Source: Paracoccus tegillarcae
GTDB lineage: Bacteria > Pseudomonadota > Alphaproteobacteria > Rhodobacterales > Rhodobacteraceae
Length of the DNA: 64,000 bases
Direction of reading: 5' to 3'
NCBI RefSeq assembly: GCF_002847305.1
Contig: NZ_CP025408.1
Span: forward strand, 2,253,001-2,317,000
Shown: positions 59,708 to 60,673 of the stretch, piece by piece
How the letters are laid out: each line of letters begins with the position of its first letter
Position numbering within the stretch: the stretch's first letter is position 1
Translations under genes and position numbers: made by a program
The notes under the pieces: model-generated
The model's input: the letters and a program-made list of their open reading frames with translations, nothing else
Told to the model about the DNA's origin: nothing
The model's database searches: none

Positions 59708-59743
59708 GACTTGGCACTATCGCGACTGCCCTGAAAAAGTAAA

Positions 59744-59778
59744 GCGGCGACGCCCAGGGAGGAGGAGGGCGTCGCCGC
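59744..59778 (-). terminator. Last CcsR hairpin, also terminator
   Basis: GCGGCGACGCC and GGCGTCGCCGC pair over 11 bases around the shared loop. On the minus strand TTTACTTTTTC follows directly, so this unit ends the transcript. Confidence 0.75.
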
Positions 59779-60078
59779 GTCACCGCAGACCCAGGGAGGA
59801 GGACGGGCCGCGTATGGGGTGCGGTGATGCCCAGGGAGGAGGAAGGGGCGGTCACCGCGTAACGAGGGGCTGTCCAGGGAGGAGGAGGGACAGCCGGTCC
59901 CCGTATTCTTTCAGCGGCAGCCCTCAGGGAGGAGGAGGAGGGCTGCCGCCGCAACAAGATCACCCTCAGGGAGGAGGAGGAAGGCGATCCTGCTATCTGT
60001 CGGCGACACCCTCAGGGAGGAGGAGGAGGAGAGGGTGCCGCCTAAACCCTTGCCCCAGGGAGGAGGAGGGGGCCAGGG
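59744..60078 (-). ncRNA. Eight-unit CcsR-like stress small-RNA array
   Basis: Eight consecutive hairpins share a loop that reads CAGGGAGGAGGA on the plus strand, so the minus-strand RNA shows UCCUCCUCCCUG in each. Loop copies start at 59755, 59792, 59832, 59875, 59925, 59967, 60013 and 60056 (spacing 37-50). Stems differ in sequence but remain paired, the mark of selection for structure. The array follows a DUF1127 gene on the same strand, exactly as CcsR1-4 follow ccaF1 in Rhodobacter sphaeroides, where these RNAs respond to oxidative and other stress. The last hairpin, 59744-59778, is followed by a T run on the minus strand and so acts as terminator. Confidence 0.88.
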
Positions 60079-60090
60079 ATTGAAATTCCT

Positions 60091-60321
60091 TTACTTCGCG
60101 GTGCCGTAAGCCGCTTCCAGAGCAATGCGACGAATCATCGAGCGATGAATGCCCAGATCTGACAGGTCGCGCTCGGTCAGCGAGTTCAGTTCGCGGATGG
60201 TCTGGCGGTAGACGGCGTTGCGTGCGCGATTTTCCTGCATGCCGGCAATCATCGCGCTCAGTTTGGCGCGGATGCCGTGCGCTGCGTGGGCGCCGCCGTG
60301 GATATGTTCAATTGCAGCCAT
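60091..60321 (-). CDS. ccaF1: DUF1127 RNA-associated protein (CcaF1-like)
   Basis: A 76-residue basic protein. The C-terminal half, RQTIRELNSLTERDLSDLGI and HRSMIRRIALEAAY, is the DUF1127 domain with its LxxLxDxxLxDIGI pattern. In Rhodobacter sphaeroides the homologue binds RNA and helps mature the CcsR RNAs that follow it. AAGGA upstream of the ATG is a good ribosome site. The gap to the first hairpin is only 12 bases, so protein and small RNAs share one primary transcript. Confidence 0.88.
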   Translation of the reverse strand: MAAIEHIHGGAHAAHGIRAKLSAMIAGMQENRARNAVYRQTIRELNSLTERDLSDLGIHRSMIRRIALEAAYGTAK

Positions 60322-60673
60322 TTGCGTATTCCTTGCGTCTGCTCATCTCATCTGCGCCTTGTCCCGTTCGATCGTCTGTCCGGGTGACGCTTTCTTCGAG
60401 TACAAAGATGGCGCTAATGCTGCAGGTGCACAATGACCGAGTGTGAAATTCTGCCATGCAGAAAGCGCATAACTGTTGCTGACCCAATTTTCATGACATG
60501 CTGAAAACAAGAGCAAAAAACTTAACAAAAAGTTTACATCATTCACGTTTTGGTTGTAGTTCAGCCAAGTGGCGCAGCGTTTCTTGGGTCAGATCTGCGA
60601 CATTAGGACGCGCTTGTTGCTCAATGGATACGGTTCCATCATTTTGACGCAGATTCGGCGTGAGGGTTAAGAA
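60322..60673. other. 352-base gap between ccaF1 and mrp
   Basis: Contains the RpoH-like promoter of ccaF1 (60406-60433) and an AT-rich stretch (60470-60545) that probably drives mrp. No gene is visible. Confidence 0.5.
60406..60433 (-). promoter_or_regulatory. RpoH-like promoter of the ccaF1-CcsR unit
   Basis: On the minus strand TTGTGC and GCGCCATCT lie 16 bases apart, similar to the RpoH pattern (CTTG..., CCATNT). The leader would be about 77 bases. RpoHI/HII control is known for the Rhodobacter counterpart; the site here is matched by eye. Confidence 0.5.

Follow-up and report, generated by a model that had tools for sequence, protein, structure and literature searches.

A CcsR-like array of anti-Shine-Dalgarno hairpins, built from two-hairpin modules, downstream of a DUF1127 gene in Paracoccus

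Introduction

In Rhodobacter sphaeroides, the RNAs CcsR1-4 are made from the 3' UTR of ccaF1 by RNase E and destabilised by PNPase, according to those parts of two reports that deal with their processing (PMC7866481, PMC8625941). Section 2.7 of PMC3927594 attributes two stem loops to RS0680a of the same species, which on our reading is one of the RNAs later named CcsR. Cuckoo-type anti-Shine-Dalgarno (anti-SD) RNAs are described with two to four hairpins in the relevant part of PMC4504443. For NfeR1 of Sinorhizobium meliloti, the portion of PMC10746234 consulted reports anti-SD loops that pair with the mRNA start site, silence defined mRNAs and are redundant. The part seen of a P. denitrificans sRNA study holds no tie to the locus described below.

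Here we analyze a 64,000-nt stretch of the Paracoccus tegillarcae genome (NZ_CP025408.1, positions 2,253,001 to 2,317,000; hereafter the window). A sequence-only reading had proposed that a DUF1127 gene is immediately followed there by a CcsR-like anti-SD array, encoded on the minus strand.

Results

Organization and folding of the array

This placement holds. The DUF1127 gene encodes a CcaF1-like protein; among named relatives that carry the gene, Paracoccus sp. come closest (identities of 76 and 74%). The array starts 12 nt past the end of the gene on the same strand. The gene rlmJ lies downstream of the array and mrp is divergent. In transcript order, the locus comprises:

60451..60461, minus strand: palindrome CTGCATGGCAG (CTGC-N3-GCAG), candidate PhaR-type box, 17 nt from the -35 element
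60406..60433, minus strand: promoter candidate TTGTGC-N16-CCATCT, a pattern seen in the window and in the genus
60091..60321, minus strand: DUF1127 protein, 76 aa, CcaF1-like (Pfam PF06568, 4e-12)
60002..60078, minus strand: module 1, hairpin 1 (60047-60078, weak) and hairpin 2 (60002-60042, strong)
59912..59995, minus strand: module 2, hairpin 3 (59952-59995) and hairpin 4 (59912-59951, the strongest)
59821..59904, minus strand: module 3, hairpin 5 (59862-59904) and hairpin 6 (59821-59858), order of stability reversed
59744..59812, minus strand: module 4, the terminal pair, hairpin 7 (59784-59812, weak) and hairpin 8 (59744-59778, strong)
59734..59743, minus strand: T-rich tract TTTACTTTTT, directly after hairpin 8

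As the sequence-only reading had stated, eight hairpins with a common loop occupy exactly 335 bases (minus strand, 59744-60078). The loop of each is UCCUCCUCCCUG, and all eight plus-strand CAGGGAGGAGGA sites are present (59755, 59792, 59832, 59875, 59925, 59967, 60013 and 60056). The 11-mer core CAGGGAGGAGG occurs in the window only at these eight sites, with one further site in the 3.95-Mb genome. The loop is anti-SD and presumably resembles the end of 16S rRNA; a 16S-tail query (GGATCACCTCCTT) had no match in the assembly.

The folding energy of the minus strand of the array is -179.7 kcal/mol, compared with -131.9 +/- 5.0 in dinucleotide shuffles (z -9.6; 0 of 100 equal), whereas the plus strand of the same interval reaches only z -2.8. 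Folding unit by unit, as had been suggested, gave a divided result. Hairpins 2, 4, 5, 6 and 8 were each equalled by at most 1 of 200 shuffles, but hairpins 1, 3 and 7 were unremarkable when folded singly (31, 13 and 37 of 200 shuffles equal them), the piece used for hairpin 3 having a truncated stem. The folds, together with the compensatory changes described below for hairpin 8, bear out the claim that the stems differ yet stay paired. The proposal that loops grew along the array by slippage finds no such agreement: unpaired loop lengths are 12, 17, 12, 12, 12, 13, 10 and 11 in transcript order, which shows no trend. Nor are the units slipped and diverged copies of recent date, the top identity between window units one to six places apart being 0.80.

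The array unit is a two-hairpin module

The unit of the array is a module of two hairpins, weak then strong. Hairpins 1/2 fold at -15.6/-24.9 kcal/mol, hairpins 3/4 at -19.9/-30.1 and hairpins 7/8 at -13.4/-28.8; module 3, with -21.2/-18.3 for hairpins 5/6, is the exception to an order that holds for three of the four pairs in the window. Across 89 Paracoccus loci with even counts of eight or more hairpins, the second hairpin exceeds the first in stability in 478 of 502 pairs, as compared with 7 of 413 when the register is shifted, and mean energies are -23.9 kcal/mol for the second and -16.0 for the first hairpin. The same register is found in twelve loci outside the genus (52 of 54 pairs; shifted, 0 of 42), for which array limits were set by hand and loop clusters less than 29 nt from the previous one were dropped; this set omits L199 and L074, the latter having a DUF1127 gene and no hairpins found. 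Spacing tells the same pairs apart: in 92 even loci it averages 38.3 within pairs and 50.7 between pairs. Hairpin borders were overextended in this analysis and linker composition was unreliable; only spacings and tail counts were used.

Much stem sequence of the terminal pair is kept across the genus. Covariation of hairpin 8 was followed in 49 dereplicated loci of the 89, of which L112 and L186 were dropped as the anchor was not found; the remaining 47 loci yielded 17 distinct arm pairs. Arm cells are paired in 96.8% of cases, against 87.6 +/- 1.2% in 1000 shuffles (maximum 90.9%), and double changes occur in 20 cells (shuffle mean 4.8, maximum 12), these statistics ignoring the relatedness of the loci. 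Double changes affect seven positions, a value equalled by the shuffle maximum of seven (mean 2.3). Two arm-pair types, from four loci, seem mis-anchored, which lowers the score.

Rfam models place the array near CcsR and cuckoo RNAs

A covariance-model search had been proposed as a check, and its outcome depends on the threshold. At the Rfam cut-offs nothing matched in the array. At relaxed thresholds the CcsR1 model RF02791 matched three times (E 9e-9 to 7e-7), each match spanning two hairpins: module 4 (40.8 bits, 59739-59820), module 2 (37.2 bits, 59909-59997) and module 1 (34.4 bits, 59998-60084). Module 3 had no RF02791 match of its own in this relaxed search. The best score stays below the RF02791 gathering cut-off of 65.3 bits, and the ar14 model (RF02344) just misses its own of 58.8 bits, with 58.2 bits over three hairpins at 59861-59997.

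How far the RF02791 cut-off can guide assignment was gauged on other genomes. Of 120 family genomes, 99 match the model at E <= 0.001 and only 7 reach the cut-off, which is therefore narrow and says little on distant members. Conversely, Thermus composti, one of 14 genomes used as controls, matches below the cut-off at the same E-value, so that weak matches alone are no proof. We class the array as CcsR-like and of the cuckoo (anti-SD) type, and not as a member of Rfam CcsR1. It is a genuine, well-conserved member of an already known kind of RNA.

The RF02791 model comprises two hairpins in 83 positions. The expansion from four RNAs to eight copies suggested earlier is thus a miscount: hairpins had been counted against RNAs that, like RS0680a and the model, have two hairpins each. 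Eight is also not an unusual number, since 85 of 117 Paracoccus loci exceed it.

Arrays change by modules across the genus

These 117 loci are the window and 116 stretches around Paracoccus DUF1127 matches, some being second copies within one genome and some cut by contig ends. At least four hairpins follow the DUF1127 gene in 114 of these loci, all chosen by DUF1127, and zero to two in the other three. The count is even in 93 of the 114 and odd (five or more) in 21. Among even-count loci, one has 4 hairpins, three have 6, 18 have 8, 25 have 10, 24 have 12, 17 have 14, four have 16 and one has 20; most numbers in the genus lie between 8 and 16. Nine of ten fetched family loci were counted (L199 left out): L192, L193, L196 and L200 have 8 hairpins, and five others have 14, 12, 10, 10 and 6.

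Even counts of ten or more occur in 71 genus arrays, and in 68 of these the best-matching units at lags of one to six are 2, 4 or 6 hairpins apart. Arrays therefore change by modules, often two together, as exemplified by the close relative L077 with its 16 hairpins. Relatives have duplicated two or four hairpins at a time, but the four modules of the window are without recent copies.

Additional copies of the DUF1127 gene and array were seen on other contigs of genomes G139, G001, G003, G054, G055 and G022. The extra copies L093, L095, L102, L109, L113, L127 and L132 have 5, 2, 6, 5, 5, 5 and 6 hairpins, respectively, and the DUF1127 copies L135 and L137 have 1 and 0. Arrays L187 and L168, with seven and six hairpins, carry altered loops (UCCUCCCC types) and are perhaps degenerating copies.

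Loci without a detected DUF1127 gene

A DUF1127 match is absent from 16 of 125 genus genomes, 14 of which have an RF02791 match. We took the best RF02791 locus from each of these 14 and set aside L404, a contig end. In the 13 others (L391-L403, from 13 Paracoccus genomes), neither the genus profile nor tblastn detected DUF1127. Their setting is conserved: rlmJ follows the array in 13 of 13 and mrp precedes it in 12 (L391 being partial). TTGTGC is found in all 13, 52-111 nt before the first loop and at 52-53 nt in ten; the -10 element is CCATCT in five and one or two bases off in the rest.

Nine of the 13 have 5, 9, 7, 4, 8, 9, 7, 7 and 7 loop clusters, and L394, L395, L398 and L399 fold into three hairpins. 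Judged by energies, most carry one extra weak hairpin ahead of ordinary weak-strong pairs, which is why odd counts are usual here. These odd counts contradict a strict even rule.

On an RlmJ tree the DUF1127-less state requires four changes by parsimony, although well-supported branches force only one; L186 and L190, with DUF1127 present, are placed among the DUF1127-less loci. This state may therefore have a single origin. Of 14 loci outside the genus (ten selected through the RNA match, four through the protein), 13 have the DUF1127 gene, with L198 as the sole exception, which makes gene loss the simpler explanation. A strongly diverged DUF1127 protein may be encoded elsewhere in the DUF1127-less genomes.

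Promoter-like and terminator-like signals

Of the 117 genus loci, 90 contain the pattern TTGTGC-N(14-18)-CCATnT, the spacer being 16 in every case, whereas none of the sequences shuffled once each contains it; the tally misses the window, whose copy was read separately. A scan for sigma70 promoters found none. Conserved TTG in the -35 element is described for RpoH promoters of R. sphaeroides in the section of PMC3441632 that concerns them.

Upstream, CTGCATnGCAG is present in 96 of 117 genus loci, 78 of which place it 28-29 nt from the -35 element, start to start. We take CTGC-N3-GCAG to be the PhaR site of P. denitrificans. The genome holds one phaR gene (PF07879), and a phasin-like gene near it has CTGCATTGCAG and further TGC boxes upstream (L363, 1470-1515). 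TGC-rich regions are recognised by PhaR of P. denitrificans and R. sphaeroides, as far as the relevant part of PMC10888616 goes. The consulted portion of PMC12542648 states that in S. meliloti the sRNA MmgR is repressed by PhaR and gives the consensus YGCRNYGCR, which the window palindrome does not match exactly. We hypothesize that PhaR binds the TGC box and controls the array, which might link PHB storage to an sRNA.

Because the T-rich tract TTTACTTTTT follows it directly, hairpin 8 is a candidate intrinsic terminator, and a terminator-like site was predicted in silico on the minus strand at 59755-59742. Averaged over 92 loci, the 12 nt after the last hairpin contain 5.5 T, against 1.7 (scaled) after the others; this tail is an average and is absent from some loci.

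Candidate target sites

The 9-nt loop complement AGGGAGGAG has 15 sites in the genome, eight in the array and seven elsewhere. Six of these seven lie 4-9 nt before a start codon, and three of the six precede genes for solute-binding proteins. Four relatives yielded 38 distinct loop-complement sites outside the array, 29 of them at starts. Three of the genome's own genes seem to recur in one of these relatives, G024, judged by N-termini alone: a solute-binding protein (L231/L341), an acyl-CoA ligase (L242/L342) and a TRAP protein (L218/L344).

For AGGGAGGA, 36 of 46 non-array sites are at a start codon, as compared with 21 of 34 for the control Shine-Dalgarno word AAGGAGGA (34 sites kept of 43 listed, repeated contexts and sites away from the centre of the locus having been taken out), 24 of 65 for purine 8-mers without SD core and 1029 of 6000 random positions. 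Solute-binding proteins account for 13 of the 36 AGGGAGGA start sites and 5 of the 21 of the control. As the control word behaves similarly, the data show a loop that fits start sites, not one that selects uptake genes, and we dropped the idea that it prefers these to ordinary strong SDs.

Near a AGGGAGGAG site, L204, L298, L343 and L357 share, across four genomes, a conserved GAGGGAGGAG followed by AGGCCC-GTGGGA. In the genome of the window, this element is away from a start codon. No Rfam family matched it at cut-off.

Discussion

Sequence, predicted structure, module register, conservation, promoter- and terminator-like signals and the positions of complementary sites form the basis of our interpretation; transcription, processing, pairing and the roles of both hairpin types are what we infer from them. 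We consider it likely that the array is the ccaF1-CcsR operon in the form it takes in Paracoccus (a CIN1 or cuckoo RNA locus) and works as follows. A single minus-strand transcript would start near 60399, comprise the DUF1127 gene and the four modules, and have its end at hairpin 8. If processing resembles that in R. sphaeroides, modules of about 70-85 nt would then be freed by RNase E, so that four processed species of this size would be expected rather than the eight of 40-50 nt proposed earlier. Each module would expose two UCCUCCUCCCU loops that base-pair with Shine-Dalgarno sequences of the GGGAGGAG type and so keep many mRNAs from being translated, those of solute-uptake genes included. 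The strong second hairpin probably protects the 3' end from PNPase, while the weak first hairpin probably opens for pairing. Silencing as by NfeR1, and handling by RNase E and PNPase as for CcsR, are carried over to this locus by analogy.

The position of the array in the DUF1127 3' UTR could also mean that its main role is to stabilise the DUF1127 mRNA at the 3' end or to autoregulate it, with the protein as the working product, for example through protein-protein contacts. Such contacts are reported between A. tumefaciens DUF1127 proteins and PhoR, and DUF1127 proteins, R. sphaeroides CcaF1 among them, complement a defect in phosphate control that operates via protein contacts, according to the part of PMC12501420 devoted to them. 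However, 13 Paracoccus loci keep TTGTGC, hairpins and the rlmJ/mrp setting without a detected DUF1127 gene, and we regard this explanation as very unlikely. That the locus is no RNA gene at all, rather a coding ORF or a DNA-level repeat (a REP-like palindrome array), we find barely credible. Mechanical ORFs of 87 aa (minus strand) and 125 aa (plus strand) do overlap the array, but a comparison of three close relatives shows indels of 1-4 nt, chiefly in loops, that disrupt any reading frame, and the far better folding of the minus strand, the compensatory changes and the conserved promoter-like element upstream all speak for an RNA.

The loops might instead act in bulk, as a sponge for ribosomes, CcaF1 or Hfq that titrates SD-bearing mRNAs or a protein. 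Near-identical loops, many per transcript, would suit this role; hairpin numbers mostly of 8-16, up to 20, are as expected for a dose-dependent sink; and the potential sites are largely generic SDs. Against it, the anti-SD loops of NfeR1 silence defined mRNAs by pairing (PMC10746234, in the portion consulted), and the literature on related RNAs, in the parts consulted, offers the sponge no direct support. We hold it to be unlikely. A further reading, which we advance only tentatively and think rather less than even, makes the Paracoccus array the primary regulator, tunable in dose module by module, with a dispensable DUF1127 protein lost in some lineages; the PhaR-type box and the RpoH-like promoter would tie it to PHB and stress. 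If true, synthesis of uptake proteins would be throttled on storage (PHB) or stress demand.

To the operon-like organization that we favor, this analysis adds a conserved promoter pattern, a phasin-box-like TGC palindrome and the 13 DUF1127-less Paracoccus loci. The latter are natural experiments on the role of the DUF1127 protein for linked sRNAs. Within one genus, a single locus has as few as three hairpins, where the DUF1127 gene is missing, and as many as twenty, and this copy-number series offers a test bed for the dose action of anti-SD sRNA arrays.

Among described systems, CcsR1-4 and ccaF1 (RSP_6037) of Rhodobacter (Cereibacter) sphaeroides are similar in that anti-SD hairpins follow a same-strand DUF1127 gene, that each RNA has two hairpins with CCUCCUCCC loops, and that a terminator closes the locus, presumably after four units. 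Unlike in CcsR1, the stem sequences of the window have diverged and score below the Rfam cut-off; the RpoHI/RpoHII promoter, co-transcription, RNase E processing, stress induction and Hfq dependence that mark the CcsR/ccaF1 operon are putative for the window array. Paracoccus arrays reach up to 20 hairpins, and some Paracoccus loci are without the DUF1127 gene. The cuckoo or alpha-r14 RNAs of Rhizobiales (NfeR1, SmelA075, SmelA099; RF02344) likewise combine variable stems with CCUCCUCCC loops. They have three or four hairpins, NfeR1 with its own sigma70 promoter, whereas the window array follows a DUF1127 gene; the 13 DUF1127-less Paracoccus loci come near this free-standing form. AbcR1/2 and MmgR, anti-SD sRNAs of alphaproteobacteria, share the CU-rich anti-SD motif with the array. 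In the accounts consulted, AbcR acts largely on ABC transporter mRNAs and MmgR is repressed by PhaR/AniA. These RNAs contain one or two motifs each, whereas the window presents a tandem array of like hairpins.
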